From Pelolinea sp. (GTDB lineage: Bacteria > Chloroflexota > Anaerolineae > Anaerolineales > Anaerolineaceae), in the NCBI GenBank assembly GCA_030692365.1, contig JAUYCC010000011.1, positions 1-64,000 of the forward strand: a stretch of DNA of 64,000 nucleotides, written 5' to 3'. The translations under genes and the position numbers were made by a program. The notes beneath the pieces were generated by a model that had not been told where the DNA came from, searched no databases, and saw only the letters and a program-made list of their open reading frames with translations. Positions 22,565-48,355 of the stretch are shown piece after piece. Numbering within the stretch: position 1 is the first letter of the stretch; each line of letters opens with the position of its first letter.

Positions 22565-22584
22565 GATTCCCTCCTGATATTTAC

Positions 22585-23529: not shown

Positions 23530-23534
23530 ACTTT

Positions 23535-24614: not shown

Positions 24615-24693
24615 TCATTAATCCTTTACGGCAGGGGATTATAACCGCAGGATGTAAATTTGATGTAGGAAGAAAATAAAAAAGAAATTTGAT

Positions 24694-25665: not shown

Positions 25666-25710
25666 TACCGTAATTGTAAATTCTACTTAAATAAATCCAA
25701 TGAAATAATA

Positions 25711-25929: not shown

Positions 25930-25930
25930 C

Positions 25931-28412: not shown

Positions 28413-28494
28413 AGTCTTTTAAAAGATTAGTGTCTTTAATACTGTTACAAGTTGTGTGCCATAACAGGAAACCAGGTCTGCTATAATCGCAAAC

Positions 28495-29385
28495 ATGATT
28501 CTGGTGACGGGCGGTACAGGATTTATCGGAAGCAGGGTGGTGGAGCAGCTCATCCAATCGCGAGAAGAGATCCGTATTTTGTTGCGCCCGCATCGCAAGA
28601 CCCCCAATCTGCCAAAGAAAATGGCGTTGGATATCACTGTCAGCAGCATGGAAGATGAGCGCGGTTTGCGCACTGCTTTAAGAAATGTGGATACTGTCTT
28701 CCACTTCGCGACCGCGGAGCATCAGGGGCAGGACGCTGACCTGGAAAGCGTGGACGTCCGCGGGACGCAAAGCCTGATAACTGCGGCCAGAGAAGCGGAG
28801 GTAAAGCGCATCCTTTTTCTGGGGCGTGTTGGCGCTGATAAAAGTTCTTCCTATCCAGTTCTGAGGGCAAAAGCCCTGGCAGAGGATGAGGTGCGGAAAA
28901 GCGGAATTCCTTATTGCGTCCTCAGGGTGACAGACGTTTTTGGAGCCAATGACCATTTCGCCAACGAAATTGCTTCTGCTATCCGCCACGCGCCGCTTAT
29001 TTTGCCTTACCCGGGCGGCGGAAAAGCGATTGTCCAACCGCTCTGGATTGAAGACTTGATATCCGTGATCATGCTTATTCTGGAAACAAAAAGATTTAAC
29101 AATGGTATTTATGAGATCGGCGGCGGAGAATTCTTTGAGTTTATAGATATTGCCAGGATGGTGATGCGAATCATCAACAAGAAAAAGCTTCTCTTTCAGC
29201 TTTCGCCCGCGTATCTGCGAATCATTAACCTGTGGTTCAAACCTTATAAGGGAAGATTCCCTTTATCGACGCGCTGGCTGGACCTTCTGGCTATTGACCG
29301 GACCTGCCCGCTGGATGCGATGCCGAGAAACTTTTCAATTCTGCCGGGTCGGTTTCAAAGCCACCTGGAGTTTCTGACTCGCTAG
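28495..29385 (+). CDS. NAD(P)-dependent epimerase/dehydratase (extended SDR)
   Basis: MILVTGGTGFIGSRVVEQL, NVDTVFHFATAEH, GGGKAIVQPLWIEDL. Confidence 0.87.
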   Translation: MILVTGGTGFIGSRVVEQLIQSREEIRILLRPHRKTPNLPKKMALDITVSSMEDERGLRTALRNVDTVFHFATAEHQGQDADLESVDVRGTQSLITAAREAEVKRILFLGRVGADKSSSYPVLRAKALAEDEVRKSGIPYCVLRVTDVFGANDHFANEIASAIRHAPLILPYPGGGKAIVQPLWIEDLISVIMLILETKRFNNGIYEIGGGEFFEFIDIARMVMRIINKKKLLFQLSPAYLRIINLWFKPYKGRFPLSTRWLDLLAIDRTCPLDAMPRNFSILPGRFQSHLEFLTR

Positions 29386-29390
29386 CTTAA

Positions 29391-31091: not shown

Positions 31092-31124
31092 GATTATGAA
31101 TTTAGGGTTTATTTTCGAAGAAAC

Positions 31125-31994
31125 CTAATCTAGCAACTCTTTTATTGTAAACCAATCCCCTGGTTTATCCTCGATCTGAACGCCTTCGATGAGAAATCCA
31201 TTCCCAACCAAAGTTTTTAAGGACCTGTCGATTGAAAGATCGATCCACTGAAATAGTTTTTTCACATCGTTTTTGGTGGCAGAACCGACCGAGAGAAAAT
31301 AAGACCTCAAAATTTCCTGCCGTGCCTGCGCTTCGCTGATGTCATGTGCCCGATCCGTGAGATCCGGAAATTGGCGGTGTACTGCATCGAAAATGAAAGC
31401 GTAATGCCAGGCGCCGCTTTCAGCTATGCCAACTGGTAGAATGCGAAAGTCGCGCTGCAGCAGCAATAATGCCCGGTTAAACCTTGAGGTATTCTCGCTG
31501 GATGACAGATTGGCCGCCTTGCGCAGCATCAGCGAATCCAAAGCCCCATTATTCAATAGCGCTTCATAAACGAGCTTTTCTTCGCTGCTGAGAACCCCTT
31601 CTTCATAGCTGATCAGGTAGTCTTCTTCAGGATTTCCATAATTAGGCGATAGGGCATAAAAATAAGGAAGTAGGTCCAGGGAAATGATGGTACTTTTTTG
31701 CCGAAGAATTTTGGCGTAAAACCAGACCTTTTTCCCAAGCAGGTCATCTTTCCAGCCCCAGGTAACATGCGCTGGATCGTCATGATTATTCGGAACCGGC
31801 CTATCGCCGGCAACAGCCCCCCACAGGCTTGGAAAATCAATGCCTTTGATCGGCCAGAAAAAAACTGTGCCGCGCTCGTTTACAAAATCAATCGCGTCCT
31901 GCTTGCTGCGCAGGCGCTTGCGGGGAAGATAACAGAATGTCCTTGCACGATGTTCCCGCAGCTTGGCAGCGGAAATGGTGGCTTCAGTCTGCAT
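31125..31994 (-). CDS. AlkZ/YcaQ-related winged-helix protein
   Basis: ARTFCYLPRKRLRSKQDAIDFVNERGTVFFWPIKGIDFPSLWGAVAGDRPVP...HVTWGWKDDLLGKKVWFYAKILR resembles HTH_42/YcaQ-type proteins. Assignment from memory of the family style. Confidence 0.5.
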   Translation of the reverse strand: MQTEATISAAKLREHRARTFCYLPRKRLRSKQDAIDFVNERGTVFFWPIKGIDFPSLWGAVAGDRPVPNNHDDPAHVTWGWKDDLLGKKVWFYAKILRQKSTIISLDLLPYFYALSPNYGNPEEDYLISYEEGVLSSEEKLVYEALLNNGALDSLMLRKAANLSSSENTSRFNRALLLLQRDFRILPVGIAESGAWHYAFIFDAVHRQFPDLTDRAHDISEAQARQEILRSYFLSVGSATKNDVKKLFQWIDLSIDRSLKTLVGNGFLIEGVQIEDKPGDWFTIKELLD

Positions 31995-33144
31995 TGGTCA
32001 GAATGTGGGTGATGATGTTCGATCCGCTGCCGCCGATGTTTTGCGCCATACCCCATCTGGCGCCATCTATCTGGGCTTCTCCTGCCTGCCCGCGCAGTTG
32101 GGTCACCACTTCCGCGATCTGATACATGCCGGTTGCGCCAACCGGGTGACCGCGAGCCTTCAACCCGCCAAGCGTGGCCACCGGGATCTTCCCACCTTTT
32201 CTTATTTCGTTATCAAGCGCCAATCGTGGCCCTTGGCCCCTTTCGGCAAATCCGGAGGCTTCCAGTGATAAGGCTGCCATGATAGTAAACGCGTCGTGGT
32301 ATTCAAAAAAGTCTATGCTGTATTGATCAATGCTTGCCTGTCTGTATGCGTCCTTTGATGAGCGTTCTGCGGAGGTCAGCCAGAGCGGGTCTTTTCTGGC
32401 ATGGACAGCGATGGTATCGCTGGCTGCTCCTGAACCTGCCACACGGATGACGGATTTATTGGGTAAAGGAGCAAGTTTTTCGACGGGAACAAGCAAGGCC
32501 GCGGCCGCACCGTCACCGATGGGTGAGGCATCCAGTAATGTGATCGGGTCGCATATAACTCCCGCTTCTTCAAATTGCTTCTGGGTGATGAGCATGTGAA
32601 AGCGCGCGTAAGGATTGTGCATTGCGTTGGCATGCGCATTGATTGAGAAGTTCGCGAAATCACTGCGCTTCCAACCGTATTCATGCAAGTAACGCTGCAT
32701 GATCAGGGCGTTCAGCGCGACAAAAGATACCCCCTGGCTGACCTCCCAGTCCGCGTCTGCAGCCGTTGCGAGGCTGGCTGTGATCTCTGCGGAAGGGGAA
32801 TCTGTCATTTTTTCAACACCAACCGCAACAGCCACATCAATTTCGCCGGATGCAACTGCAATCAAGGCGGCGCGGAAGGCTGCTGCGCCGGAGCTGCAAG
32901 CGGATTCGAGCCGATAAGCTTCTTTGCTCTTTTGGCCGACCCAGTCCGCGATGTACGCGCCCAGCTGCTGCTGGTTGTTTGCTGAAGCGGACATCATATT
33001 TCCAACATATAGTCCGTCAAAATAATCCAAACCAGCGTTGGCCATCGCCTTAAGCACCGCGTCACCGGCAAGCTCTCGGAGGGATTTATCCCAGTGTTCA
33101 CTGATTTCGGTCTGACCAATTCCAATCACCGCGACTTCACGCAT
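31984..33144 (-). CDS. Thiolase family protein (acetyl-CoA acetyltransferase-like)
   Basis: VIGIGQTEIS, RLESACSSGAAAFRAAL (active-site Cys), EYHDAFTIMAALSLEASGF, GGLKARGHPVGATGMYQIAEV, NIGGSGSNIITHIL. Confidence 0.92.
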   Translation of the reverse strand: MREVAVIGIGQTEISEHWDKSLRELAGDAVLKAMANAGLDYFDGLYVGNMMSASANNQQQLGAYIADWVGQKSKEAYRLESACSSGAAAFRAALIAVASGEIDVAVAVGVEKMTDSPSAEITASLATAADADWEVSQGVSFVALNALIMQRYLHEYGWKRSDFANFSINAHANAMHNPYARFHMLITQKQFEEAGVICDPITLLDASPIGDGAAAALLVPVEKLAPLPNKSVIRVAGSGAASDTIAVHARKDPLWLTSAERSSKDAYRQASIDQYSIDFFEYHDAFTIMAALSLEASGFAERGQGPRLALDNEIRKGGKIPVATLGGLKARGHPVGATGMYQIAEVVTQLRGQAGEAQIDGARWGMAQNIGGSGSNIITHILTNAD

Positions 33145-33243
33145 AATTTACTCCTGACAAAGTTTGATTCTATTATAAATAAACGCCCTCTCATAATCTA
33201 TCCGATTGATATTCAGGTAAAATTTGCATTTCAGGAGTTCACC

Positions 33244-33879
33244 ATGAAAATCATTGATATCACATTGCCCATGTCAAATCAAACACCGGTCTGGGAAGGC
33301 GATAAGGGGATCATTATCAGACAGGTTGCGTCTCTTTCAAAAGGTTCGGATTTTAATGTCTCGCGCGCTGAATTTGGAGTTCACGCAGGAACGCATATTG
33401 ACGCGCCTTTTCATGTATTTAATCATGGCTATACGGTTGACAAAACTCCTCTGGATATCCTGATCGGACCCGTGCAGGTTGTGCGGATTGATGATTCTAT
33501 TGAAATAATTACCAGAGAAGTTCTGCTGAAGGCAGGATTTGTGAAAAGTACACAGCGCCTGTTGCTGAAAACCAGAAATTCTGATTACTGGATCAAAGAC
33601 CCTTACCGCTTCAACCGTGAATTTGTAGCCATTGACTCCAGCGCGGCGGAATTTCTGGTAGAAGAAAGTGTCTCCTTTGTGGGGATTGATTATTTTTCAA
33701 TCTCACCATTCATAGACCTGAAAGCTCCGCATGAGATACTTCTGCGGGCGGGAATTGTGATACTTGAAAACGCGTACCTGGTTAATGTGGAACCGGGTAC
33801 ATACAACTTGATTTGCCTGCCATTAAGTTTGGTCGGCACCGATGGCGCGCCGGTGCGTGCTGTGCTGACAACAGAGTAA
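33244..33879 (+). CDS. Cyclase family protein (kynurenine formamidase-like)
   Basis: IDITLPMSNQTPVWEGD, FGVHAGTHIDAPFHVF (HxGTHxDxPxH), FVGIDYFSISPF. Start at ATG 33244 behind an SD-like caggag. Confidence 0.9.
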   Translation: MKIIDITLPMSNQTPVWEGDKGIIIRQVASLSKGSDFNVSRAEFGVHAGTHIDAPFHVFNHGYTVDKTPLDILIGPVQVVRIDDSIEIITREVLLKAGFVKSTQRLLLKTRNSDYWIKDPYRFNREFVAIDSSAAEFLVEESVSFVGIDYFSISPFIDLKAPHEILLRAGIVILENAYLVNVEPGTYNLICLPLSLVGTDGAPVRAVLTTE

Positions 33880-34650
33880 TTATCCCGGCACCGGCAGAGT
33901 GTAACCGCCGTCCACCACAATGATCTGACCGCGGATCATATCTGCGGAGGGGCTGCATAAAAAAGCAGCGACTTCAGCCACATCCCAGGGGGAGACCAGT
34001 CGTCCTGCGGGGGTGTTGGCGACCGCGCGGGGAAGAACACCTTTATCGTCCATAAAGGCAAAATGCTTTAAAGCCCCGGTCTCAACAATACCGGGCGCAA
34101 TCCCGTTGACCGCGATGTTCCTGGGTGCCAGTTCAACCGCGAGATATCTCACAAGCGAATTCAACGCTGCCTTGCTGGCGCCCACCGCCACATAATCAGG
34201 CAAGACACGTTCCGCGCCTGGGCTTGTGATGGCAACCATCTTTCCGCCGCCCGCTTTATCCATCAACACAGCCGCGAATTGCGCGCCAAACAGAAAAGCT
34301 TTGGCGTTGACGTTGAGCGTATGCTCCCAACCAGACTCTTTTTGTTCCATGGCAGGCCGGTTGAAACCCGATGCGGCGTTTGAAATGAAAAAATCCAGTT
34401 TGCCAAATTCTCTATCAGTCTCGCTGAATAATTTTTCCAATCCTTCGGTTTTTCCAATGTTGGCACGCACAACCAGCGCTTTCCTGCCCAACAAGCGGAT
34501 CTTCCCGGCAGTCTCTTCCGCTGGTTGTTGATTGTGAACATAGTTGACGATAATGTCAGCGCCCAACTCCGCAAAATGAATAGCGATAGCGCTCCCGATC
34601 CCGCGACCCGAACCGGTGATTAAAGCAGTTTTACCCTCAAGCTGTGTCAT
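33880..34650 (-). CDS. fabL: FabL-like enoyl-ACP reductase III / SDR family oxidoreductase
   Basis: ALITGSGRGIGSAIA; FISNAASGFNRPAMEQKESGWEHTLNVNAKAFLFGAQFAA; YVAVGASKAALNSLVRYLAVELAPRNIAVNGIAPG; ADMIRGQIIVVDGG. Resembles Bacillus FabL as I recall it. Confidence 0.75.
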   Translation of the reverse strand: MTQLEGKTALITGSGRGIGSAIAIHFAELGADIIVNYVHNQQPAEETAGKIRLLGRKALVVRANIGKTEGLEKLFSETDREFGKLDFFISNAASGFNRPAMEQKESGWEHTLNVNAKAFLFGAQFAAVLMDKAGGGKMVAITSPGAERVLPDYVAVGASKAALNSLVRYLAVELAPRNIAVNGIAPGIVETGALKHFAFMDDKGVLPRAVANTPAGRLVSPWDVAEVAAFLCSPSADMIRGQIIVVDGGYTLPVPG

Positions 34651-34782
34651 TTTTCCATCCTTGAAATAAAAAGATTCTATGAAAATTGATATATGTAATT
34701 AACACTCTACTTAGATAAATGATATATTATTTTGGTAGGATACATACCTATGAAATTACTCCAATAGTAAAAGGGATATTTA

Positions 34783-35712
34783 ATGGCAGAAGAAAAAGTT
34801 GTCGAAGATGTGATCATTTTGGGTACAGGCCCTGCGGGGTTATCTGCGGCGCTTTATGCCGCGCGCGCCGACCTTCATCCGCTGATCATGACCGGTACGG
34901 AAATTGGCGGCCAGGCGGCGCTCACCGACCGCATTGAAAACTATCCGGGTTTTCCGGAGGGCGTGGGCGGCTCAGAATTGGCGGATCTTTTTCAGAAAAA
35001 TGCCGAACGGTTTGGCGCGCGGCTGGAGTATGATACTGCCACGGAGGTTGACCTTTCACAACAACCCTTTAAGGTAAAAACATACAGCAAAGATTATTTT
35101 TCGAAGGCTCTAATTCTGACCACCGGTGCCAGGTCCAATAAACTGAATGTTCCGGGTGAAAATGAGTTCAGGGGCAGGGGCGTTTCTTATTGCGCCACCT
35201 GTGATGGCTGGTTTTTTAAGGAAAAGAAAGTAGCAGTGGTAGGCGGTGGCGACAGCGCGCTGGAAGAAGCAATTTTCCTGACCCGTTTCGCGACCTCTGT
35301 AATAATCATCCACAGGCGGGACGCATTGCGGGCAGGAGCGATTCTGCAGAAACGTGCAACAGACAACCCAAAGATTCACTTCGTCTGGAATACTGTCGTT
35401 ACCGAGATCAAAGGCGTTGACGGGGTTGACCAGCTTCGACTGAAAAATGTCAAAGATGGGACGGAATCTGAAATGGATGTTGACGGTATATTTGTCTTTA
35501 TCGGGCATACACCCAACACAGAAATTTTCAAAGGGCAGATTGATCTTGATGAAAAAGGGTATATTGTCGTAGATAATCGCTTGCGTACCAAAATTCCGGG
35601 TGTTTTCGCTGCGGGAGAAGTTTGTGATCCGCATTACCGCCAGGTGGTGACATCGGCAGGTATGGGCGCGGCAGCCGCTATTGAAGCGACACGTTTTTTA
35701 GAAAATGATTAA
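34783..35712 (+). CDS. trxB: Thioredoxin-disulfide reductase
   Basis: ILGTGPAGLSAALYAARADL, GVSYCATCDGWFFKEKKVAVVGGGDSALEEA, VFAAGEVCDPHYRQVVTSAGMGAAAA. Confidence 0.95.
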   Translation: MAEEKVVEDVIILGTGPAGLSAALYAARADLHPLIMTGTEIGGQAALTDRIENYPGFPEGVGGSELADLFQKNAERFGARLEYDTATEVDLSQQPFKVKTYSKDYFSKALILTTGARSNKLNVPGENEFRGRGVSYCATCDGWFFKEKKVAVVGGGDSALEEAIFLTRFATSVIIIHRRDALRAGAILQKRATDNPKIHFVWNTVVTEIKGVDGVDQLRLKNVKDGTESEMDVDGIFVFIGHTPNTEIFKGQIDLDEKGYIVVDNRLRTKIPGVFAAGEVCDPHYRQVVTSAGMGAAAAIEATRFLEND

Positions 35713-35730
35713 TTGATTTGTGATAAAAAG

Positions 35731-35758
35731 AAAAGGAGCTCATTGGAGCTCCTTTTTT
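35731..35758. terminator. Bidirectional-type intrinsic terminator between trxB and the convergent LysM gene
   Basis: Perfect 11-bp stem AAAAGGAGCTC-attg-GAGCTCCTTTT plus further T's. Confidence 0.85.
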
Positions 35759-35764
35759 GTTTTG

Positions 35765-36910
35765 TTAAGGCGCCTGGGTAACAACAGCCCCAATGCCGGA
35801 CCAGGAAAATACGCGCGGTACACTCTGCGAACCGGCTGGCACCCAGATTGCATCTCCAGATTCGGTGGTGCCGAATTGGCGGACTGGCTGCACCCACCAG
35901 CGGATGACGTGTGGCTCGTTTTCAACCGGCCTGAATGTGGCCGGAACAATATACTTGGTGTCGTTGGTGTAGTCCACCAGTTTTCTGCCCTGACCTTGGG
36001 TGAGGTCCTCAATTGTGACCGCGTAAGATTCGCCTTCCAGCATGCCGCCGATGGCAGCCCACTGCAAGGTGATGGAATCATTCGCGCCAGTGAAGATGGC
36101 GCCATCCGCGGGGAGCAGCAAGTTCGCCGGCTGGTATGGGGGTGGCAGTGTGGCGGTTGGGGTTGGACCGGCGGTTGGCAGGCGTTCGCATAACGGGATG
36201 GTGATCACCTGGCCGGAATAAATGTTGTTGGAAGTCAGCCCGTTATAGGTTTTTAAGGTTTCAACGGTCACCGCGTAATTGGCAGCGATTCCGCTCAAGG
36301 TGTCATTTTCACCTACCCGGTATTCAATTTTCTGGCAGGCGGATTCAGTAGCTTGATTGACACTCAACGTACTGGTCGCCATAGGCGACGCAGTTGGGGT
36401 AGGCTGTGGGACCAGAATTGTTTGGCCGACAGTTAATACGCCGCAGTTAGGCGGAAGGTTGTTCAATTCAGCGATACTCCTAACCGTCACATCGAAGATT
36501 ACAGCAATCAGGCTGCAGGTATCGTTACTGCGAATCTGGTAATCCTTTGGAGGTAAGGGCGTGAAGGTAGGTTCGGGTGTGGATGTAACCGTCGGTGTTG
36601 GGCTCTGTTCAAATGTGGGAGATGGGCTGGCTGTGGCCGTCGCTTCCGACGGTGTAACCTGCCCGGTTCCTCGCAGCACCAGAAAGCCTAAACCCCAGCC
36701 AACTGCCAGAATGATAAAAAGTAAACCAATAGCCAATGGCAGGCTTAACTTGAGTTCCGGCAGCTTTTGGGCTTGCCGAGTCTGCTTGGCTTTAAGGGCG
36801 GATTTAACGGTAAAGGTTCGCCCGCATACCAGGCAGCGTGGAGCGTTTTCAGCCAGTTTGGTGCCACAGGTGGGGCATATTTTTGTTTGGGAATTTAATT
36901 CAGGTGCCAT
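35765..36910 (-). CDS. Zinc-ribbon, transmembrane, double-LysM protein
   Basis: N-terminal CPTCGTKLAENAPRCLVCGRTF, TM helix, two LysM units (YQIRSNDTCSLIAVIFDVTVRSIAELNNL; YRVGENDTLSGIAANYAVTVETLKTYNGL). Confidence 0.87.
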   Translation of the reverse strand: MAPELNSQTKICPTCGTKLAENAPRCLVCGRTFTVKSALKAKQTRQAQKLPELKLSLPLAIGLLFIILAVGWGLGFLVLRGTGQVTPSEATATASPSPTFEQSPTPTVTSTPEPTFTPLPPKDYQIRSNDTCSLIAVIFDVTVRSIAELNNLPPNCGVLTVGQTILVPQPTPTASPMATSTLSVNQATESACQKIEYRVGENDTLSGIAANYAVTVETLKTYNGLTSNNIYSGQVITIPLCERLPTAGPTPTATLPPPYQPANLLLPADGAIFTGANDSITLQWAAIGGMLEGESYAVTIEDLTQGQGRKLVDYTNDTKYIVPATFRPVENEPHVIRWWVQPVRQFGTTESGDAIWVPAGSQSVPRVFSWSGIGAVVTQAP

Positions 36911-36987
36911 AGAAAGGTTTTACCTCAAAAAATCGAGTCATTATATCATTTTGGTCAAGTGGCCTAAATCTTGGGTATGATTAGACC

Positions 36988-38178
36988 ATGCAATCAGGTA
37001 ATTTATTAAGCGTTTATATTCATATCCCGTTTTGCAGAACGCGCTGCGGTTATTGCGATTTTAACACATATGCCGGCTATGACCATTTGAAGGAATCGTA
37101 TGTAAAAGCAGTGGTCGAGGAGATCTCCAGGACATCCAGAAAAATTGATAACGATTATTTAGTCCATACCATCTATTTCGGAGGAGGGACTCCCAATTTA
37201 TTGTCCTCCAACCAAATAGAGGAAATAATAAAAGGCATCAGGGACAAATATATTTTTTCTTCTCAAATAGAATTAAGTACCGAAGCTAACCCTTCTTGTC
37301 TTCCGGGAGATTACCTCAATGCGCTAAGGGATATTGGCATCAACCGATTGAGTTTGGGAATGCAATCTGCTTCAGCCAAAGATCTTGAGATTCTTGGAAG
37401 GAGCCATACTTTTAAGGATGTAGAAATCAGTGTTGAAAACGCGAGAAAAGCCGGTTTTACAAATATCAACCTGGATCTGATCTTTGGAATTCCGTATCAG
37501 ACTCTCTTGTCATTTGAAGACACATTGAAGTCCGCGATCAATTTATCCCCGAGCCATCTTTCTCTATACGCGCTCTCTGTTGAAGATTCAACTCCTTTGG
37601 CCATTCAGATCGCGGAAAAAGTGGTGCCGGAATCGGATGAAGACCTGGCAGCGGATATGTACATTCTGGCGATGGAATTTCTTGAAAAGCATGGATTCAG
37701 CCAATATGAGATATCCAATTGGTCATTGGATCAGAAGAGCCAATGCCTGCATAACCTGCAATATTGGCGGAATCTGGATTATCTGGGATTTGGCGCAGGT
37801 GCGCATAGCCTTTACAGGCAAACAAGGTGGGAAAATCGTAAAACAATAACCGATTATATCGATTCGATATCACAAAGTCCTCAAAATGAGGATTATATTT
37901 CTCCGGCTGGGATAAATCTGATTTCCCTTACCAATACTGATGAAATGTCTGAGACCATGATGATGGGGATGCGTTTAACCGAAGAAGGTATAAGTGCCGA
38001 GAATTTCTTGAAACGATTTGGGGTTAGCCTGGATGAAGTTTATTCCAAAGAAATAACCAAATTGCTACATCAGGTATTGGTGGAATGGGTTATGGTGGAA
38101 GGCCACAGCCATTTACGGCTGACCAAAAAAGGCAGACTGCTGGGCAACCAGGTTTTTATGCAATTTATACGGGACTAA
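36988..38178 (+). CDS. hemW: HemW-type radical SAM protein (oxygen-independent coproporphyrinogen oxidase-like)
   Basis: YIHIPFCRTRCGYCDFNTY (CxxxCxxC), YFGGGTPNLL, NINLDLIFGIPYQT, HemN C-terminal domain. Confidence 0.92.
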   Translation: MQSGNLLSVYIHIPFCRTRCGYCDFNTYAGYDHLKESYVKAVVEEISRTSRKIDNDYLVHTIYFGGGTPNLLSSNQIEEIIKGIRDKYIFSSQIELSTEANPSCLPGDYLNALRDIGINRLSLGMQSASAKDLEILGRSHTFKDVEISVENARKAGFTNINLDLIFGIPYQTLLSFEDTLKSAINLSPSHLSLYALSVEDSTPLAIQIAEKVVPESDEDLAADMYILAMEFLEKHGFSQYEISNWSLDQKSQCLHNLQYWRNLDYLGFGAGAHSLYRQTRWENRKTITDYIDSISQSPQNEDYISPAGINLISLTNTDEMSETMMMGMRLTEEGISAENFLKRFGVSLDEVYSKEITKLLHQVLVEWVMVEGHSHLRLTKKGRLLGNQVFMQFIRD

Positions 38179-38181
38179 AGA

Positions 38182-39231
38182 TTAATAAACCAGAACGGGG
38201 GTATGGTAAACGGTATTGACTTTGGTTTCCTGCGGTGTCGGTGTGCACCAGCGGTATATCCATTTGGCGTCTTCAGAGCGCATATTGATACAGCCGTGGC
38301 TCATGGTAACTCCAAAATTATTGTGCCAATATGTTCCATGGATAGCTACACCAGAATTTGGCTCAAAATAAGATACCCACGGAACTCCAGGCAGCTCATA
38401 AGCTTCCACATCAAAGCGCGCAATACTTCCGTCACCCATATGTATTGCAGGGCGCTTGTTTTGGATTATATGATCACCTTTCGGTGAATCGGTAGGAATT
38501 ATCCCTGGACCTTTCAGAGTACTGGGTAATCCGGTCGAAACCAACGCCTCTTTAACCAAGGTGCTGCCTTCAAAGGCACGCAAAGTTTGAAAATCGATAG
38601 AAATTTCAATGCGCTTGTCTTTTGGATTAACCTCCGGGTTGATGGGTAGTAATTCATCATCTTCCACTTTTCGCAAGTGAATGGCACGAACGTAATAGGA
38701 AAGCGTTAGTAACGAATCATTGACCTTGTACCATGCTTCCCCGTCCGGCCCTTCCAAAACCTCAAATACCCAATGTGTAGAGGAATAATACAGGCGATAA
38801 AAAGGCTCCCATGTCCCATTCTGGCGGATGCGGTAGGATTGTGAAAACGGGACGGACAATTCCATCAATTGGCCGGATGAGGGAAAGGTTTTCATGATCG
38901 GATTCAACTGGTTGCGTACCCGCTGCACCCAGGCGCTGTGGACGTAACCTCCCCAAACGCGGTGCCATAAAGGGTTATAACCGGGGCCATCTTCAGAAAT
39001 GGCATCCTGATAGATATTCAAAATATTATCGCGGAAATGCTGAAATAGGATCTTGCTTTTATCTGACGCTTCTTTATATACGCTCAGGGATTCAGAGGTG
39101 ACCCTGCCCAATTTGGAAATCGGAGTTGTGCCTGATGAAGAGAGTTGTTTTGGCAAAGCCAGCGCCGCTAATCCTAATCCACTGGTTTTAAGGAATTCAC
39201 GGCGGTCCATTTTCTTGTTCACAAGCGGCAT
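38182..39231 (-). CDS. Tat-exported L,D-transpeptidase (YkuD domain)
   Basis: MDRREFLKTSGLGLAALALP Tat-like leader; IHGTYWHNNFGVTMSHGCINMRSEDAKWIYRW catalytic segment. Confidence 0.9.
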   Translation of the reverse strand: MPLVNKKMDRREFLKTSGLGLAALALPKQLSSSGTTPISKLGRVTSESLSVYKEASDKSKILFQHFRDNILNIYQDAISEDGPGYNPLWHRVWGGYVHSAWVQRVRNQLNPIMKTFPSSGQLMELSVPFSQSYRIRQNGTWEPFYRLYYSSTHWVFEVLEGPDGEAWYKVNDSLLTLSYYVRAIHLRKVEDDELLPINPEVNPKDKRIEISIDFQTLRAFEGSTLVKEALVSTGLPSTLKGPGIIPTDSPKGDHIIQNKRPAIHMGDGSIARFDVEAYELPGVPWVSYFEPNSGVAIHGTYWHNNFGVTMSHGCINMRSEDAKWIYRWCTPTPQETKVNTVYHTPVLVY

Positions 39232-39269: not shown

Positions 39270-41579
39270 CTAAACGTCACTAAACAGATAATCTGGGTCG
39301 ATACGTCGGAAATAAGATCGGAAGGCGGAAGTTTCGTCAAGGAGGTTTTTTAAATTTGTTTCCAGACTCTTGGTATTCGGAGATTCCGGCTTCTTTATCC
39401 GGCTTAACTCGACATCAGTTCCTTGCAAGCTGAATTCAATCTCACCTTTTGCCCTGAGCAGTTCAAGCCCGAGTAATATTGTTTTGTTGCTTTGCCCAAG
39501 CGCGGCGCCGAGTTGCTCAAGGCTTGTTTTTCCAGCCTTGTGCGAAAGGCAATATTTAGTAAGTCCTATTAACCTTATTGTAAATATTTCAACGGAATCA
39601 TCGATTGTAGATAAGTTGAAAAGATATATTTCAGTTGGATCGGCTTTTTTAACCACCTCTTTTAGAATTTCCCGGTCAGCTGGGGAAACGAGTACTGCCA
39701 GGGCTTTTGCCTTAATTATTTCTAGGCGATTGCAGATTAGAAATTGGTCTAATTTAATCCCTTCCGCCCAAAGAAGTAAATCCGGCTCTTTGGCCAATTT
39801 TTCAAGTATTTCATTCTGGTTTGGTGCAGCGCGAAAATCATGGATTTTGAATTTCTTGATCTCCGGGCGAAGATCTATTGTTGCTGTCTCAATTTCCCTG
39901 AAATCTAACCACTCAAGCGACACCTCATCATTGGAATGGTAATCATCTCGGCGCACATAATAAGCCAGGTCAAACTGGCTATCAGGAAGGGTTGAATCCG
40001 CAGATTCCCACCAGAGTACGTTTTTCGAATTTCCCTGCTGGTCTTTGACGATTAATTTGCGGTGCTCCTTTGATTTTCCAATATAAGAGGTCTTTTCAAT
40101 TTCCAGGTTCCTCGAAACCAGTACCGGAGGTGGATTACCTGGTCCAAATGGCGCCAACTGCTCGGTTTCATTAAGAAGGGATTCATTGATGTTCGCTAAC
40201 GGCAGATACGCATCAATCTCCAGCGTTTTTTCCAGCTCTTTTCCGGCACTCATTCTTGAAATGGACCTTGATAATCCTTCCCGGAATTCAGGAATATTTT
40301 CAAACGCTAGGGATAACCCTGCTGCCATAGGATGGCCGCCGTATTTGATCAGGTATTGGCTGTTTTCCTGTATCGCTTTGATAATATTGATCCCTTCTAT
40401 AGACCGCGCGGAGCCGGCAGCTATCCCTCCCTGGCTGTCCAGTAGAATCGCGGGTTTGTGGTATTTTTCAACCAGGCGGCTCGCGGCAATTCCCACCACA
40501 CCTCTTTCCCACTTTTCACGGTCAAGCACGATTACCGGGTATTGGAGCAATTCCTTTTTCTTTTCCAGTAGGTCAACCGCAGATTGGTAAACCATATCCA
40601 CCGCAAGTTTACGCTTAGTATTTAATTCTTCCAGTCTCTTTGCCGTTTCGGTAATGGCTTTCTCATCATTTGATAGCAGAAAATTGACAATTGGATTGGC
40701 GTCACCTAATCTGCCCAGTGCATTCAGGCGGGGAGCGAAGGTAAAACCGATATGGGACTCGTTGATCACATTGTCGCGAAAACCCGCCAGCCCGGCCATT
40801 ATTGCGAAAGCTTTCCTGGGTTTATCGTTCATAACCCTTAAGCCCGTTTTGGTGTAGAAGCGATTCTCACCGGTAAGATCAGCCAAATCGGCGATGGTCC
40901 CAAGCGCTACCAGGTCGAAGTACGCTTTAGCCAGGACATCTTTTTCTTGCAGGCTGAATAGTGCGCGAATTAACTGAAATGCGGTGCCAACACCAGCCAG
41001 TGGATAAAAAGAATGGCTGTCTGAAAGCAGCCTGGGATTGATGGTCGCGTAAACCGAAGGTAGTTTTTCCGCGGGTGAGTGATGGTCGGTGATGATGGTG
41101 TCAACGCCAATTGACGACAGAAACTCCAATGATTCAAATTCTGTGATGCCAGTGTCGCAGGTGATGATCAACCTCGGGTTACTTTCGCTCAGAAAACGCT
41201 TTAGGCTTTCAAGTTGGATTCCATGGGACTCTCTGGCGCGGACAGGGATATGAAAAGCGATATCAGCTCCCGATTTTCGCAAACCATCGACCAGGATTGC
41301 GGTGGATGTCTGTCCGTCGACATCAAAATCCCCCCAGATTCCGATGCGCTCCTTATTCTTTATGGCATTCTGGACACGCTCTAATGCCTTCCCCATTTCG
41401 GGGAAGTCAAAGGGAGAAGCCTGGAGAAAACTTGTGGGATCTAGGAATTGCCTTGCCTGTTGAGCAGTGGTAATACCTCTTTTCGTTAACTGTTCAGCAA
41501 CGAGTAGGCTTGTTTGAAAAGCTTCTCCGATCTCATCACTTGGAATAACTGGCCGAGGTTCGACCCATTTCATAGGCAT
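39270..41579 (-). CDS. recJ: Single-stranded-DNA-specific exonuclease RecJ
   Basis: IGIWGDFDVDGQTSTAIL, DTIITDHHSP, NPRL, GVGTAFQLIRAL, GGHPMAAGLSL (DHHA1). Confidence 0.94.
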   Translation of the reverse strand: MPMKWVEPRPVIPSDEIGEAFQTSLLVAEQLTKRGITTAQQARQFLDPTSFLQASPFDFPEMGKALERVQNAIKNKERIGIWGDFDVDGQTSTAILVDGLRKSGADIAFHIPVRARESHGIQLESLKRFLSESNPRLIITCDTGITEFESLEFLSSIGVDTIITDHHSPAEKLPSVYATINPRLLSDSHSFYPLAGVGTAFQLIRALFSLQEKDVLAKAYFDLVALGTIADLADLTGENRFYTKTGLRVMNDKPRKAFAIMAGLAGFRDNVINESHIGFTFAPRLNALGRLGDANPIVNFLLSNDEKAITETAKRLEELNTKRKLAVDMVYQSAVDLLEKKKELLQYPVIVLDREKWERGVVGIAASRLVEKYHKPAILLDSQGGIAAGSARSIEGINIIKAIQENSQYLIKYGGHPMAAGLSLAFENIPEFREGLSRSISRMSAGKELEKTLEIDAYLPLANINESLLNETEQLAPFGPGNPPPVLVSRNLEIEKTSYIGKSKEHRKLIVKDQQGNSKNVLWWESADSTLPDSQFDLAYYVRRDDYHSNDEVSLEWLDFREIETATIDLRPEIKKFKIHDFRAAPNQNEILEKLAKEPDLLLWAEGIKLDQFLICNRLEIIKAKALAVLVSPADREILKEVVKKADPTEIYLFNLSTIDDSVEIFTIRLIGLTKYCLSHKAGKTSLEQLGAALGQSNKTILLGLELLRAKGEIEFSLQGTDVELSRIKKPESPNTKSLETNLKNLLDETSAFRSYFRRIDPDYLFSDV

Positions 41580-41581: not shown

Positions 41582-42412
41582 TTAAAAAGTAATCTCTTCA
41601 ATCTGGTCAAAATCTAAATTATCTAATCCGGAATCATCCTCAAATTCATTCTCTGCATCATCAACCTTTCCGGCTTGTATGCCCCTCTCGCATAAGGAAC
41701 GGTATTGGCAGTAAGCGCAGCGCTTATCGTTGGTTGTCTTATCAAATGAACCCGGTTCTTTTATTGCAATTTCCTTAATTAGGCTGGAAAACACTTCCTG
41801 ACTGGTGGCGTAACTAACACTTGAATATTCCAGAGCAATTGTTTTTTCGGGAAATGCTGGGAACCAGTACTCCATGGAGATATCTTCCTTTCGCAACTTG
41901 TCTACTTGAGAAAAAATGTGATCCCGGTTTTCAAACATCATAAAAGGATACAGGAAAGATTGGAGAGATTGGAGATATAGTTCTCTCTTGGGGTTACGTG
42001 TGGTGGTTTTCCAGTCTCCGATAATGATTTTATTACTACCAGTAAGAGTTATGAAATCAAAAACCGCGATCAGGCGGAATCCTTCGAATGGCATTGTGAC
42101 GGTGAATTCGCTGAAATAGGGAAAATTCAGATAAGGTTTGATGAATTCCTGGAATTTTATAAACCAGCCCTTTAAATCCGGGTCATCAATGGAATTATCC
42201 AAAACATTGCCGGGAATGCCGGAAAGAAATTGATGGACAATCTTGTGAAAGCAGTTGCCCATTTGAATTTTATATTCCATCTCCTGAACTGGGTGGCTGG
42301 TGATTGCCGGCCAGCTTTGTTTTAGGAAGTACTTCAATTCAAATCGCCTGGGGCAGTCCAAGTAATCTTGCAGGTTATTGGCACTAAAGACGAAATCTCT
42401 ATCCAGAGGCAT
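41582..42412 (-). CDS. Stand-alone PD-(D/E)XK nuclease with putative 4-Cys Fe-S cluster (AddB/Cas4/RecB-nuclease-like)
   Basis: DCPRRFELKY N-terminal Cys, GNCFHKIVH, FDFITLTGSNKIIIGDWKTT (D...DWK), LQSLQSFLYPFMM, CAYCQYRSLC C-terminal Cys triad. Confidence 0.85.
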   Translation of the reverse strand: MPLDRDFVFSANNLQDYLDCPRRFELKYFLKQSWPAITSHPVQEMEYKIQMGNCFHKIVHQFLSGIPGNVLDNSIDDPDLKGWFIKFQEFIKPYLNFPYFSEFTVTMPFEGFRLIAVFDFITLTGSNKIIIGDWKTTTRNPKRELYLQSLQSFLYPFMMFENRDHIFSQVDKLRKEDISMEYWFPAFPEKTIALEYSSVSYATSQEVFSSLIKEIAIKEPGSFDKTTNDKRCAYCQYRSLCERGIQAGKVDDAENEFEDDSGLDNLDFDQIEEITF

Positions 42413-44621
42413 GCTTCATCTCCCACCAGTTTCTCAACGCCTGGAGAGGGACCGCTTCGCGGCAATCGTCTTGCCGACCGGTATTCCAGGTGATCACCAG
42501 TTGTTTTTTTGCGCGGGTAATGCCCACATAAAAAAGGCGTAACCTCTCGGCGCAATATCCCTGACGTGCATCCAAGGTGGCAATACCTTCATTCTTATTC
42601 AGGCTAATGAAATCATTTGATGTCGCGGCTTTCAGCAGTGATAAGGCTTCCGCTTCTAAATTAAGATTTTGACGCACAAACCATTTCTCAGACATATAGC
42701 GATCATAATCCTGCATTGAAGGAAAATCGTAATTATTTACCGACATCAGATACACCCGATCCCATTCAAGCCCTTTGGCTTTGTGGATTGTTGAGATGAC
42801 CACTCTACCTTTATAGTTTTCCGGATCAAATCCGAGGTCATCTTCCGAAAAGCCGTAAAGTCTAAACCTGTTTTTGACAATCGCGTTTAATTCTTCGCAG
42901 AAATCGGGCAGCTCCCATTGAGGGTAAAGATCACTAGCCGATTTCAGGATCACCGCTAATTTATGGGCAAGCGCTAAATCCGCTGGTTCAGAAAAAAGTA
43001 TCATTCCAATTGTCATGATCATTTGATCGATTGGGAGCAGAACAGTTTGTTGCCAACGAATGATTTGCTTTACTGAAGAGATTATTAAACCTAATTGTGT
43101 TTCATCGATTCCCGAGATGGTTAAATCTCCCAAGATTTTCTGAGGATCCATCAGAATTTCTTCCACCTGCAAATTCTGAATTTGTTTTAATATCAATTGT
43201 GTCAAATGTTTAGGCGGCTCTGGCCATGCCGGATTTACTTTAAGAATGGATAAGAAAGCATCGATAAGGTGCCGGTGAGTTGATGGGTGAACAAAATAAG
43301 TCAAAATATCCCCGATGATTTTCGCAGTATCGCGAGTTGTTTGACTGCTGTTTAACATTTCCTTTATTGGCACACCCAAGGTGGTTAGCTCTTCAGCGAG
43401 TTCAACCCCGCGCACATTTCTTGGAACAAGAACAGCGATCGTGGAATCCGGATGTTCGCAAACCCATTTTTTTACTGATTTGGCAACAATCCGAATTTCA
43501 TCATCAGGTTTCATGGGTTTTGCGGTAAGGTAAATTTCACCAGGTTCATCAGCGGGATTCTGCTGGGCATCGCCGGGAGGGGTGGGTTGAATTAAAGGAG
43601 GGCTTAGTGTATCCCTTAACTCCTGGACAGGATGGCTTTTTTCTGCCCATTGAATCAGGTGATTCGCCACGTCCATAATGCTTTGGGTGGATCTGCCGGA
43701 ATGTTCGAGGTCAATTTGAACCACATCGGGTTCAAGGATAAAGTCTTTAAGCAGCCTTGGATCTGCAGTTGTAAAGGTCTCAAAGATAGCCTGGTTTGGA
43801 TCACCAACCCTTACCCAATTTCCCTTGTCTCCGCACAACAGGCGAAGTAATTTCTCCTGGATCAGGCTGCTATCCTGAGCTTCATCTTCAAGAATGAACG
43901 GCCAGCGGTAACGCAGCCTACCCAGGTATTCTGGATTATTCGCCAGAACCTTATAGGCCAATCGGATAAGGTCTTCAAAATCAACTGCGCCACGATTGGC
44001 TAAAGCATGTTGATAATCTGTATAAATTGAGTATCCCAATTCCAATAATGGATTAGATGGTTCAGACCGGGATAAAGCATCATGCAGCACTTCCGGCGTG
44101 ATCTGATAATCTTTTGCTTGTTTGATAAAATTTGACGATAAGGATTGAAGAAATTCATTCCACTTGTATATATTCTTTTCAGGCGGGTGAGTGGGATCTG
44201 AATAGTCCTGTAAAAATTCGGGATGTGTTCTAATCCAGCCAGAGACGCAAATGTTCAAAATTTCGCTGCTGGTTCTTTCATCCGCGATGGAAAAACGGTT
44301 ATCCACACCCGCCAAGTCAGGGTGTTCACGGACAATATCATAGGCCAGGCCGTGCAAAGTCCTTACGCGATATCCCACGCCCGGCATGAGGCCGTAATTG
44401 CGCAAGAACCCCGCCACCCTTGCGGCGAAATTATCCACCGCGGAATTGACCAGGGTTACGATCAATATTTCCTGGTCCTCTGCCAGTATTTCACCCGAAA
44501 CCAGTTTGGCGGCCAGCATTGAGAGGGTGTGAGTCTTACCGCTGCCAGGAACTGCGGATATCCCCATTTTCCCGCCAATATACTCTAAAACCTCTTTCTG
44601 TCCTGGGCGCGGATTAAACAC
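42399..44621 (-). CDS. UvrD/Rep/PcrA-type SF1A DNA helicase
   Basis: FNPRPGQ Q-motif, SAVPGSGKT, LEDEAQDSS, VRVGDPNQAIF, STIHKAKGLEWDRVY, RLRLFYVGITRAKKQLVITW. Start inferred as GTG at 44621 (VFNPRPGQ); the ORF extends to 44708. Confidence 0.9.
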   Translation of the reverse strand: MFNPRPGQKEVLEYIGGKMGISAVPGSGKTHTLSMLAAKLVSGEILAEDQEILIVTLVNSAVDNFAARVAGFLRNYGLMPGVGYRVRTLHGLAYDIVREHPDLAGVDNRFSIADERTSSEILNICVSGWIRTHPEFLQDYSDPTHPPEKNIYKWNEFLQSLSSNFIKQAKDYQITPEVLHDALSRSEPSNPLLELGYSIYTDYQHALANRGAVDFEDLIRLAYKVLANNPEYLGRLRYRWPFILEDEAQDSSLIQEKLLRLLCGDKGNWVRVGDPNQAIFETFTTADPRLLKDFILEPDVVQIDLEHSGRSTQSIMDVANHLIQWAEKSHPVQELRDTLSPPLIQPTPPGDAQQNPADEPGEIYLTAKPMKPDDEIRIVAKSVKKWVCEHPDSTIAVLVPRNVRGVELAEELTTLGVPIKEMLNSSQTTRDTAKIIGDILTYFVHPSTHRHLIDAFLSILKVNPAWPEPPKHLTQLILKQIQNLQVEEILMDPQKILGDLTISGIDETQLGLIISSVKQIIRWQQTVLLPIDQMIMTIGMILFSEPADLALAHKLAVILKSASDLYPQWELPDFCEELNAIVKNRFRLYGFSEDDLGFDPENYKGRVVISTIHKAKGLEWDRVYLMSVNNYDFPSMQDYDRYMSEKWFVRQNLNLEAEALSLLKAATSNDFISLNKNEGIATLDARQGYCAERLRLFYVGITRAKKQLVITWNTGRQDDCREAVPLQALRNWWEMKHASG

Positions 44622-46731
44622 GGCTTTCGCCTTTTGATTGATATACCCTTTTTTGCAGGGTATGAAATGCCTGTAGCAACGGTCCTCTTTGTTCTGAGCC
44701 ATATTCATTGGTACGGACCGTATTTACACAGATCATTTTTCCACAGCGGCTGATGAGGCCCTCGATGATCTTTACCATTCCTGCCTGATTGGCATCATAT
44801 TCATGTGCGTCGGTCCATAATTGTTCCAAATCCCTGTTGCGATTAAGCAAATAGGGATTGGTCAATGGTTGGTTTAACCGTTCCCACCAGCCAAGACTGC
44901 CAATATCAAGCCAGAATTGATAATTGACATTTCTGTTTTCCATTAAAAAAGTGTGCGCCGGGGCAATTAAAACGGCATTTTTGATTTTTTCTTCATTGGC
45001 AATTATCGCTGACGGAAGGAGGCCGCTTTCAACGGATCTGATGTATTCAAGGCCGGCGGTGATTTCGTCAATATTCATGACCTGCGTCAGAAATTGTCGA
45101 AAAGCGCGGATCGATTGCGTTATTTGGGAAATCCTGGAAGCAGTGTCGTGCTCAGTAAAAAGGCTGAAACCTTTTTGAGAGAATAATTCACCAAAAATTA
45201 TACAGAAAAAGACATCCAAAGGCTGAGGATCTTGTGATTTGTAATCAATGATCCAGTTTCTGATTCTTTCCAGTTTTTCACCAATCTGAAAGGTAATTCT
45301 CTCCTGCATTACAGGATTGGTGATGGTGTCAAATGACCGTAATCCTTCCTGTGATTGTTTAACCGAGAATAGAGTCCGTACGATCAAATCCGCTTTGACG
45401 ACATCCAAATCTGGCAAGACCACCATAAGAGCATTTCGTATCTCATGAAATGATATTTGCAACTGCCATTGAGGATGAGTTATTTTTGCGAAGGTGAAAA
45501 ACGCGCGGACGTTTGGATCATCAATATACATGCGAGAGGGGCGCGAAGAGCGATGGGGAATGCCCGAGTCATTTAAATTGGCAGATAAAGAAAAATTAAG
45601 TGCATCCGAGAGATAAGGTGAAAGAATGACGATCTCATCCGGTGCTGCTCCTTGAGAATTAATCAGTTCTTTTATCTGATCGCACACTCCAGCGATCATT
45701 TCCGGATAAAAATGGTAATCATTTATCTTCAGACTGTCGTTAAAATCGAAATTTGTAAATGAATTCTTCTTTTGAGATATACATTCATAAAGGGCTATAG
45801 AGAAATTAGATAATGAATCATTATGACCGATCTTATTTTCAAGTCGTTCTTTCACGGTACATAAGGGTTTGATACTTATTGCGCTTGTTGGATCCGCGCC
45901 AAGAAATGAACGATATCCTCCGTGAAGGTCATAAATGACAAATGCAGAATCAAAGTTAGGAAGCCATACTTTGATCAAGTCATGGGCAGCGGGCACGTCT
46001 TCTTCAACATTATCAGCAATAAGTGCCCGGAAATTATTGGAGAAATATTCTTTACAGATTTCCTGATGCCACAAATGGTTAATAAAGACCTCTATTTGCA
46101 GGGAATAATCCAGCAGGTTGTTTGACAGGCAATATTTTCTAAATTCCTGGGCGCAAATCAAAACCTGGTCATAAGCTTTTAAGAGCCCTGCGTCAAGATT
46201 GGCGACGGATTTTAACCGTTGAGAAATCTCGCTGATCGGAAAGCGGATGATGGCTGATTTATTGAGGTCATCCAGAATTTGGCCATATAACCGGTTTCTG
46301 GATAAAACCACAGACTGGAAAAAACCCTGGTCCAGAAGTGGCGATATCGCTTTTTCCATGCAGTATTGAGCAGTTTCTGTCGAGAGAAATTGCGGCGGCC
46401 GGGTTGGATGGAGGAAGCCAGCTTCTTTGGAAACCAACGGCCAGAATAATTCCACCATCCTGCGCGCTAGCCCGCCAAGCGTCAGAATAGACGGCAAGCT
46501 GCCTGAATGATTTAGCTGCTGGCGAAAAAAATCAAAGTAAGGGCCACCGAGGCTGCGCTGCGGAACCATAACCAGGATCTGATACCCCGGATAGTTCGTT
46601 AAAAGGTTTTCAAGGCGGGAAATCGCGCAGGCAGTTTTTCCTGTTCCGGCTTCCCCTTCCAAGAATACTGATTCTTGTAAGTTAATATCAATTATTCTTT
46701 GCTGGTCTTCCGAGAAAGTAAAGGGTTTCAT
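44614..46731 (-). CDS. UvrD-like P-loop protein with degenerate helicase motifs (AddB/RecC-like partner?)
   Basis: FLEGEAGTGKTACAI Walker A intact; motif II position reads LIADNVEED instead of DEAQD; later helicase motifs poorly matched. Same orientation as the helicase and nuclease genes. Confidence 0.75.
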   Translation of the reverse strand: MKPFTFSEDQQRIIDINLQESVFLEGEAGTGKTACAISRLENLLTNYPGYQILVMVPQRSLGGPYFDFFRQQLNHSGSLPSILTLGGLARRMVELFWPLVSKEAGFLHPTRPPQFLSTETAQYCMEKAISPLLDQGFFQSVVLSRNRLYGQILDDLNKSAIIRFPISEISQRLKSVANLDAGLLKAYDQVLICAQEFRKYCLSNNLLDYSLQIEVFINHLWHQEICKEYFSNNFRALIADNVEEDVPAAHDLIKVWLPNFDSAFVIYDLHGGYRSFLGADPTSAISIKPLCTVKERLENKIGHNDSLSNFSIALYECISQKKNSFTNFDFNDSLKINDYHFYPEMIAGVCDQIKELINSQGAAPDEIVILSPYLSDALNFSLSANLNDSGIPHRSSRPSRMYIDDPNVRAFFTFAKITHPQWQLQISFHEIRNALMVVLPDLDVVKADLIVRTLFSVKQSQEGLRSFDTITNPVMQERITFQIGEKLERIRNWIIDYKSQDPQPLDVFFCIIFGELFSQKGFSLFTEHDTASRISQITQSIRAFRQFLTQVMNIDEITAGLEYIRSVESGLLPSAIIANEEKIKNAVLIAPAHTFLMENRNVNYQFWLDIGSLGWWERLNQPLTNPYLLNRNRDLEQLWTDAHEYDANQAGMVKIIEGLISRCGKMICVNTVRTNEYGSEQRGPLLQAFHTLQKRVYQSKGESRV

Positions 46732-46742: not shown

Positions 46743-47372
46743 TCAATGCAACAAGAAGCTGTTTATAGATTTTAACCAGCCATATTTCTGCGCCAGTTTT
46801 GTTCTGCTAAATGATGGAATCCTTAATAAAAGAAGCACTAACGTCATCGCTGCATAAATGATAGGTCGCAGGATATCCCCTTTGGTCGCCATCAAATAAT
46901 GGATAATCGCCAGGATAGCGACCAGATACACCATTCGGTGCAGGATTTTCCACCATTTTCCCATTTTTCTCTGAATTATATTTATAGATGTTATTACAAG
47001 TGGGATGAGTAAAACCAGGGCAGACAATCCAATTTGGATGAAGGGTTTATAACGGAGCTCATTAATAATCCATGAGAGATTGAATTCAAAATCAAGGCCA
47101 GCGAAGATTAGAAAATGAAGCGCAGCATAAAGAAAGGAAAATAAACCCAGCGTTTTTCTTATTTTCAGGAATATGGTCAACCCAAAAATATTCCAGATTT
47201 GTGTGCAGGCTAATGAAAGGATTAATAGATTTATAGCAGTCCGCCCGGTTCGCATTGTAGCGGCCTGAATTGGATTGGCCGTCAGGTCATTTCTCCAATA
47301 ATTGACACCGAGCAATCCCAATGGGATAAGACAAATAACACCAGCGATGAGCTGCACTCTGCTGATTTTCAT
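46743..47372 (-). CDS. msrQ: Heme-binding membrane subunit MsrQ (YedZ-like ferric reductase-like TM protein)
   Basis: RRTLGLFSFLYAALHFLIF-type segment (KIRKTLGLFSFLYAALHFLIFAGLD), KWWKILHRMVYLVAILAIIHYLM; next to msrP. Confidence 0.9.
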   Translation of the reverse strand: MKISRVQLIAGVICLIPLGLLGVNYWRNDLTANPIQAATMRTGRTAINLLILSLACTQIWNIFGLTIFLKIRKTLGLFSFLYAALHFLIFAGLDFEFNLSWIINELRYKPFIQIGLSALVLLIPLVITSINIIQRKMGKWWKILHRMVYLVAILAIIHYLMATKGDILRPIIYAAMTLVLLLLRIPSFSRTKLAQKYGWLKSINSFLLH

Positions 47373-47374
47373 GA

Positions 47375-48355
47375 CTAGAAATTTATGGATAAATCCATCC
47401 CCTTATAGAGGTATGCTACCTCATCGCCATAGCCGTTGAACATCAGGGTGTCAATCCGGCCATTCTGGCCGATGCGCCTTTCAGTTGCCTGTGACCAGCG
47501 CGGGTGGGAAACTTCAGGATTAACAATGGCATAGAAGCCATATTCGTTCGGGCTGGAAGCCATCCACAGGGATGTGGGCATTTCACTTACGAGGTCGATC
47601 CGGACGATACTTTTGATGGATTTAAACCCATATTTCCACGGAACAACCAGTCTGATTGGTGCGCCGTTCTGCGGGGTAAGAAATTTCCCGTACAATCCAG
47701 TTGCTAATAGTGTCAAGTCGTGCATGGCCTCATCCAGGCGAAGCCCTTCAATATAAGGCCATGGAAAAACCGGACTTTTTTGTCCAGGCATCTGTTGAGG
47801 GTCAAGAAGGGTTTCGAACCTGACGTATTTCGCGTCAGAAGTGGGTTCCACCATTTCAAGTAGTTTATTGAGTGGAAAACCGATCCAGGGGATGACCATC
47901 GACCAGGCTTCAACACATCTTAAGCGATAAATCCTTTCCTCTCGCTCAAACATCGAGCGCAATTTGTCAATGTCAAAGGTCTGGGGCTTGTTAACATAAC
48001 CATCAACACGAACTGACCAGGGTGAAGTGATGAAATTCCTTGCGAGTTCTGTGGGTCCGGATTTGTCTGTTGAAAATTCATAGTAATTGGTGTAACCGGT
48101 AATTTCTTCGTAACTGGTAAGGTTATTTCCTAATTCATCCTTACCATAATTCGCGACCGGAGGTGTAAGGTTCGGTGTAGCTGTAGGCAATAGTGTTTTT
48201 AGCGATGGTTTGCAAGAGGTTGCTAATAAAGAGGCTGCTGATATCGTGAGGGCATTCTTAATAAATCTGCGTCTGGACAGATATAGCTCTTCAGGTGTAA
48301 TTTCTGACGCTGGAATAGCGTTTTTCATAGACTGGGGTCCTAATTTATCTGCCAA
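47375..48355 (-). CDS. msrP: Protein-methionine-sulfoxide reductase catalytic subunit MsrP (molybdopterin)
   Basis: SRRRFIKNALT Tat leader, LRCVEAWSMVIPWIGFPLNKLLEMVEP, NGAPIRLVVPWKYGFKSIKSIV. Confidence 0.93.
   Translation of the reverse strand: MADKLGPQSMKNAIPASEITPEELYLSRRRFIKNALTISAASLLATSCKPSLKTLLPTATPNLTPPVANYGKDELGNNLTSYEEITGYTNYYEFSTDKSGPTELARNFITSPWSVRVDGYVNKPQTFDIDKLRSMFEREERIYRLRCVEAWSMVIPWIGFPLNKLLEMVEPTSDAKYVRFETLLDPQQMPGQKSPVFPWPYIEGLRLDEAMHDLTLLATGLYGKFLTPQNGAPIRLVVPWKYGFKSIKSIVRIDLVSEMPTSLWMASSPNEYGFYAIVNPEVSHPRWSQATERRIGQNGRIDTLMFNGYGDEVAYLYKGMDLSINF

Follow-up and report, generated by a model that had tools for sequence, protein, structure and literature searches.

Three overlapping minus-strand genes at positions 41582-46731 of the window, by which we mean the whole analysed stretch of 64,000 nucleotides, probably encode an ATP-dependent enzyme that processes DNA ends, is of the AddAB/RecBCD/AdnAB kind and is split over three proteins. 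This reading, in which we have moderate confidence, draws on gene content, intact or degenerate motifs, the folds of the first two proteins, profile relationships, strict co-occurrence and joint transfer; complex formation, polarity, strand choice, the recruitment of RecJ and a role in recombinational repair are predictions. The genes are read in the order I, H, N and are followed by recJ; the host genome of the window comprises 2.48 Mb and is 96% complete. The locus contains the following features:

44614..46731, minus strand: I, 705 aa, putative non-motor SF1A helicase-like subunit with an AddB/RecC-like role (ORF, invariant columns, AF2 model, Foldseek, HHalign).
42399..44621, minus strand: H, 740 aa from the GTG at 44621, complete SF1A motor of the UvrD/Rep/PcrA type (Pfam, motifs, model, Foldseek).
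41582..42412, minus strand: N, 276 aa, stand-alone PD-(D/E)XK nuclease with C...CX2CX5C Fe-S ligands (Pfam, invariant residues, HHalign).
41585..41626, minus strand: acidic C-terminal tail of N (LDNLDFDQIEEITF-COOH), a candidate docking peptide (tail motif in most of 50 relatives).
39270..41579, minus strand: RecJ 5'-3' exonuclease, 769 aa, the next gene of the operon (TIGR00644, 5.6e-148).
39270..39887, minus strand: C-terminal domain of RecJ, about 205 aa, confined to genomes with I, H and N (profile).

The original prediction described same-strand overlaps of 8 bp between I and H and 14 bp between H and N, and the ORF coordinates together with the GTG start of H agree with both values. The longest ORF of H starts at 44708, and the initial 27 residues that this adds are unconserved and predicted as disordered (pLDDT<50). 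A start at the GTG at 44621 (GTGTTTAA over the stop of I) leads to an overlap of exactly 8 bp and is the most likely one. The same order I-H-N(-recJ) is kept in most related loci, which argues against a chance arrangement. The gene recJ had been taken to follow N directly; its start indeed lies 2 bp past the end of N, but it is probably part of the unit and more than a neighbour, as it travels with the other genes and its C-terminal domain is confined to genomes that possess them. For loci with a gap between I and H, additional subunits were considered and rejected, the inserted genes being different from each other and seemingly unrelated. Upstream of I, and ending 11 bp before it, lies an MsrPQ-like pair (molybdopterin oxidoreductase and ferric-reductase-like membrane protein, window 46743-48355, minus strand), of which one or both genes adjoin I in several related loci. 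Positions 1-4000 of the window have a G+C content of 36%, compared to 43-55% across the remaining window.

Subunit I possesses an intact Walker A motif (GEAGTGKT, residues 26-33) and, at residues 240-244, DNVEE in place of the motif II D-E-x-Q, with the catalytic acid replaced by N. Both had been noted at the outset, and both are conserved in 66 relatives, where N241, E243 and E244 are invariant and K32 is found in 64 of the 66 sequences. The Q of motif III is replaced by G, and the remnant G272-x-R274...G278-A-D280 is invariant or nearly so, hence the degenerate motifs of I are themselves conserved. The AF2 model (pLDDT 90, pTM 0.88) adopts an SF1A fold. Foldseek matches it to UvrD, AdnB, AddA and AddB with TMq values of 0.51-0.65, the best query-normalised TM values belonging to AdnB (0.65), AddA (0.64) and AddB (0.63); AdnB, AddA, AddB and RecB are among the best matches of I and H. 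If profiles are compared with HHalign, I aligns to the helicase-like half of an AddB from the same class with an E of 8e-11 over 510 columns, and PcrA matches the N-terminal half of I at 4e-12. These profile links to AddB are moderate (E about 1e-10). Inactive helicase-like domains with a retained Walker A, as in AddB, are thereby found in I. A distant full-length I-like protein with a D-N-x-E motif II occurs on the Ilyobacter polytropus megaplasmid pILYOP01 (7983-9956, Fusobacteriota), as a single gene with neither H nor N beside it.

Subunit H was predicted to be a complete UvrD-like motor devoid of a nuclease domain, and this was found to be so. It matches Pfam UvrD-helicase at 1e-44, all SF1A motifs are invariant in 52 relatives, as required of an AddA-type motor, no PDDEXK match was found with Pfam, and the protein ends after UvrD_C where AddA carries its fused nuclease. 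The model (pLDDT 87, with disorder ahead of the GTG) resembles UvrD, Rep, PcrA and AdnB according to Foldseek. In HHalign, H reaches 9e-40 against PcrA and 9e-36 against AddA; being slightly closer to PcrA, it could be an independent helicase. Models of GajB match H as they match any UvrD, and the OLD-family nuclease GajA of the Gabija system was not found next to H, whose neighbours are I and N.

For N, the predicted 276-aa Fe-S PD-(D/E)XK nuclease is borne out by 50 relatives, in which C20, H56, D119, D133, K135, Q151, Y155 and C232-x2-C235-x5-C241 are essentially invariant. The catalytic set is that of the RecB family (H56, D119, D133-x-K135, Q151-x3-Y155), and Pfam PDDEXK_1 (pfam12705) is matched at 7.5e-22. 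The HHalign comparison yields an E of 5e-11 against the AddB nuclease versus 0.002 against the AddA nuclease, so the counterpart of the fused AddB Fe-S nuclease is here the separate protein N. One could also regard N as a solo Cas4 of the CRISPR adaptation type that lies beside the helicase pair by chance. Its Fe-S cysteine pattern is identical, it has weak matches to Cas4 models, and solo Cas4 is reported in many Chloroflexi (PMC5704561). We nevertheless rejected this reading as highly improbable on family scores and co-occurrence: N matches pfam12705 and stays below the cut-off of the Cas4 models (TIGR00372, 12.4 bits versus a cut-off of 65), its neighbours are recJ and housekeeping genes with no cas context, it is confined to genomes with I and H, and the genome has separate short Cas4-like proteins.

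Two proteins of the window's genome contain the UvrD helicase domain PF00580, namely PcrA (truncated by a contig end) and H. A second copy of the module was ruled out, as the N-like 272-aa ORF on contig C37 lies next to genes of metabolism and was not matched by the N query. A short Cas4-like PD-(D/E)XK protein is encoded immediately downstream of an SSB whose tip reads DEDIPF (contig C60, 6021-6605 and 7460-7885), and a similar pairing of SSB and PD-(D/E)XK protein recurs in many relatives. A second SSB of the genome (contig C42, 1105-1500) ends in DEAEEE and thus has no hydrophobic tip of the usual type at its C-terminus.

Single-sequence scans of the genome and viral collections gave no matches, and relatives were recovered with an alignment query. 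Within a sample of 400 Chloroflexota genomes of at least 85% completeness, I was detected in 48 and H in precisely these 48; N is present in 44 of the 48 and nowhere else, so that the three genes do co-occur in relatives, as the original prediction would require. The four genomes in which N was undetected belong to one family with divergent proteins. All 48 are members of the class Anaerolineae, from which 61 genomes were sampled. Fisher's test within the class leads to p values of 1.5e-13 for H and 3.6e-10 for N, which are inflated by shared ancestry and should be read as a strong association and not as independent events. Another family includes many genomes with scattered genes, all three being retained. 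In closed or near-closed genomes the distance between I and N ranges from 0.08 to 1.2 Mb, I and H are separated by 2 Mb in one, and in three genomes I, H and N lie 0.1-2 Mb apart. We conclude that I-H-N is a conserved module that is inherited as a set.

The prediction further required that the same genome contain no canonical enzyme of this type. For the window's genome this holds true, as no AddA/RecB/AdnAB-type subunit was found there, and five closed or near-closed relatives have no proteins of AddA/RecB size. It does not hold for the class, because canonical AddAB coexists with the module in 11 of the 48 genomes, and the module is therefore not simply a replacement. AddAB is found in four of the 13 remaining genomes of the class (Fisher p 0.72, no association), and replacement in the sense of mutual exclusion was accordingly rejected. 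The patchy occurrence of AddAB on both sides suggests that the two systems are independent and not alternatives. Nine of the 13 genomes without the module have neither I-H-N nor an AddB-type PD-(D/E)XK protein, which, together with the coexistence in 11 genomes, shows that the module cannot be equated strictly with the missing resection enzyme.

A further hint comes from outside the phylum. On plasmid pSR56 of Salinibacter ruber M8 (Rhodothermota), I, H, N and RecJ have homologues with identities of 36, 40, 31 and 36%, and the gene order is preserved; the annotations read hypothetical protein, ATP-dependent helicase, PD-(D/E)XK nuclease and RecJ. The profile scores of these homologues lie within the range of Anaerolineae, and the presence of all four genes in unchanged order indicates that they moved as a unit, recJ included. 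Beside the cassette we observed, at 21452-38218 of pSR56, genes for type I restriction, for a DpdF-like helicase, for a PDC-S14-like GIY-YIG nuclease and for a hypothetical protein of 1003 aa; a BrnTA toxin-antitoxin pair is likewise found on the plasmid. With the restriction, DpdF-like and BrnTA genes nearby, a role in the degradation of foreign DNA is possible on this plasmid. More generally, the module could be a defence or a barrier to DNA uptake that degrades incoming linear or plasmid DNA. In addition to the company of the Salinibacter cassette one may cite Synechococcus elongatus, where plasmids are better maintained and transformation increases if a Cas4-like nuclease, UvrD, RecJcy or another PD-(D/E)XK protein is lost (PMC10653904), these genes being likened to the module by description. 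Yet the module is a stable chromosomal trait in most of one class, where it stands beside recJ and housekeeping genes. It has no match in phage records or viral contigs, on which grounds a mobile or phage origin was rejected, and no PADLOC system was matched, the hits being generic ones to helicases and Cas4-like proteins. Enzymes of the RecBCD type in any case serve both purposes. The suggested dedicated defence role thus finds little support, and we consider it rather improbable; with the exception of the Salinibacter plasmid and its restriction genes, I-H-N is inherited vertically as a core trait of the class.

How might the three subunits work together? AddAB divides the cutting between its two nucleases: that of AddA acts on the 3' strand until Chi is met and that of AddB on the 5' strand, which leaves a 3' overhang (PMC4824097). 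With an AddB-type nuclease as its only one, the module would by analogy behave like AddAB after Chi. In the proposed complex, H would be the sole motor and move 3'->5' on one strand like UvrD or AddA. Subunit I would take the place of AddB or RecC as a nucleotide-binding, non-translocating partner that holds or separates strands and possibly senses sequence, and N, as an Fe-S nuclease of the AddB type that has become a separate protein, would cleave the displaced strand with the 5' end. As an AddA-type nuclease for the 3' strand is missing, 3' overhangs for RecA would be made without the Chi-dependent switch that AddAB needs. RecJ would extend the digestion of the 5' strand, perhaps recruited by the acidic tail of N, and the whole would presumably serve recombinational repair.

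The same genes could instead encode linked repair proteins of one pathway, e.g. gap or stalled-fork repair with RecJ and RecFOR, in which H is a second UvrD, N a flap or end nuclease and I a regulator, and an AddAB-like complex is not formed. That H is nearest to PcrA, that the operon includes recJ and all eight genomes tested have RecO, that the genes disperse freely in one family without being lost, and that canonical AddAB can coexist would all fit. The co-occurrence of I and H is exact, however, I and N match the two halves of AddB, and to our knowledge the dead SF1A helicases AddB and RecC act as partners of an active one. We therefore judge such a looser arrangement to be unlikely and prefer the three-subunit enzyme.

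A possible link of the module to RecJ deserves consideration. The last 205 residues of RecJ form a C-terminal domain which, by profile, is present in 36 of the 48 genomes with the module compared to none of the 13 genomes of the class without it, with one marginal match outside the class. It is present in I-H-N genomes also where recJ is unlinked, and comparison to solved structures gives weak winged-helix matches. The last 30 residues of N contain 35% D/E and 2% K/R, and the C-terminus typically reads LDFxQIxEIxF; the Salinibacter protein keeps an acidic tail (DLDDVEEIEF). Among the 44 genomes with N the RecJ domain occurs in 30 out of 30 in which the match reaches the end of the tail, versus 5 out of 14 others, a pattern that is partly explained by distance from the model family. 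In Deinococcus the C-terminal domain of RecJ binds the tip of SSB via its terminal Phe (PMC4846377), and nearly all SSBs examined in the order finish with an acidic stretch and then [FYI]PF. The tail of N resembles this tip, and together with the occurrence pattern we infer that it may dock on RecJ. Eight loci, which probably form one clade, possess a tail that stops earlier (e.g. ...FDFDAI) and weaken the idea of an SSB mimic; their RecJ C-terminal domains are also among the most divergent ones. Quite speculatively, one could envisage a four-component, Chi-independent machine for 5'-strand resection, in which the tail of N mimics the C-terminal tip of SSB, docks on the module-specific RecJ domain and couples the AddAB-like complex to RecJ, merging pathways of the RecBCD and RecF types.

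A survey from 2005 found many recombining bacteria without known presynaptic enzymes and predicted that still-unknown ones exist (PMC1193525). The module is a concrete candidate presynaptic enzyme for a class mostly devoid of AddAB (37 of the 48 genomes with I-H-N). If this is true, motor, structural partner and nuclease are separated where AddAB fuses them, and resection would proceed without a 3'-strand nuclease or a Chi switch. The module also offers a testable physical link to RecJ. In the open-licence literature we found no published description of the I-H-N module. The nearest published idea, set beside it here by description, is the operon of unfused UvrD and Cas4-like nuclease, which the part of the 2017 paper by Hudaiberdiev et al. 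on such operons locates mostly in Clostridiales and reads as DNA repair (PMC5704561). These fusions and split operons likewise link an SF1 helicase to a pfam12705 Cas4-like nuclease, whereas the same part of that paper describes no inactive helicase subunit or recJ.

Compared to the RecJ/RecQ/RecFOR pathway, with which it has RecJ and RecO in common, the module has three further parts, namely a dedicated helicase, an inactive one and a second nuclease. It shares two SF1A-fold subunits with AdnAB, and AdnB is among the best fold matches of I and H; AdnA and AdnB each carry a fused nuclease, while neither I nor H contains PDDEXK. A motor, a dead-helicase partner and a single nuclease are also the constituents of RecBCD, but the I-H-N operon has no gene for a RecD motor, and the RecD2 model scored over its cut-off in one of eight genomes, the window's genome not among them, and is absent from the other seven. 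The nuclease of RecB is fused and has no Fe-S cluster, in contrast to the separate Fe-S type nuclease of the module. The closest resemblance is to AddAB (RexAB), which equally has one UvrD-type motor, one non-motor SF1A partner keeping its Walker A and one AddB-type Fe-S PD-(D/E)XK nuclease, and in which the dead helicase precedes the motor, as seen in the addB-addA pairs of the genomes analysed here. Different from AddAB are the split of AddB into I and N, the motor H without fused nuclease, the missing AddA-type nuclease and the linked recJ. The proposal that the activities of AddAB are split in three is hence sustained in that I, H and N together hold them according to HHalign, and it falls short by one nuclease of the AddA type. 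By their defining fusions the module is not a member of AddAB, RecBCD or AdnAB; judged from profiles and models, its parts would correspond to an AddB divided into two proteins and an AddA/PcrA-like motor minus the nuclease.
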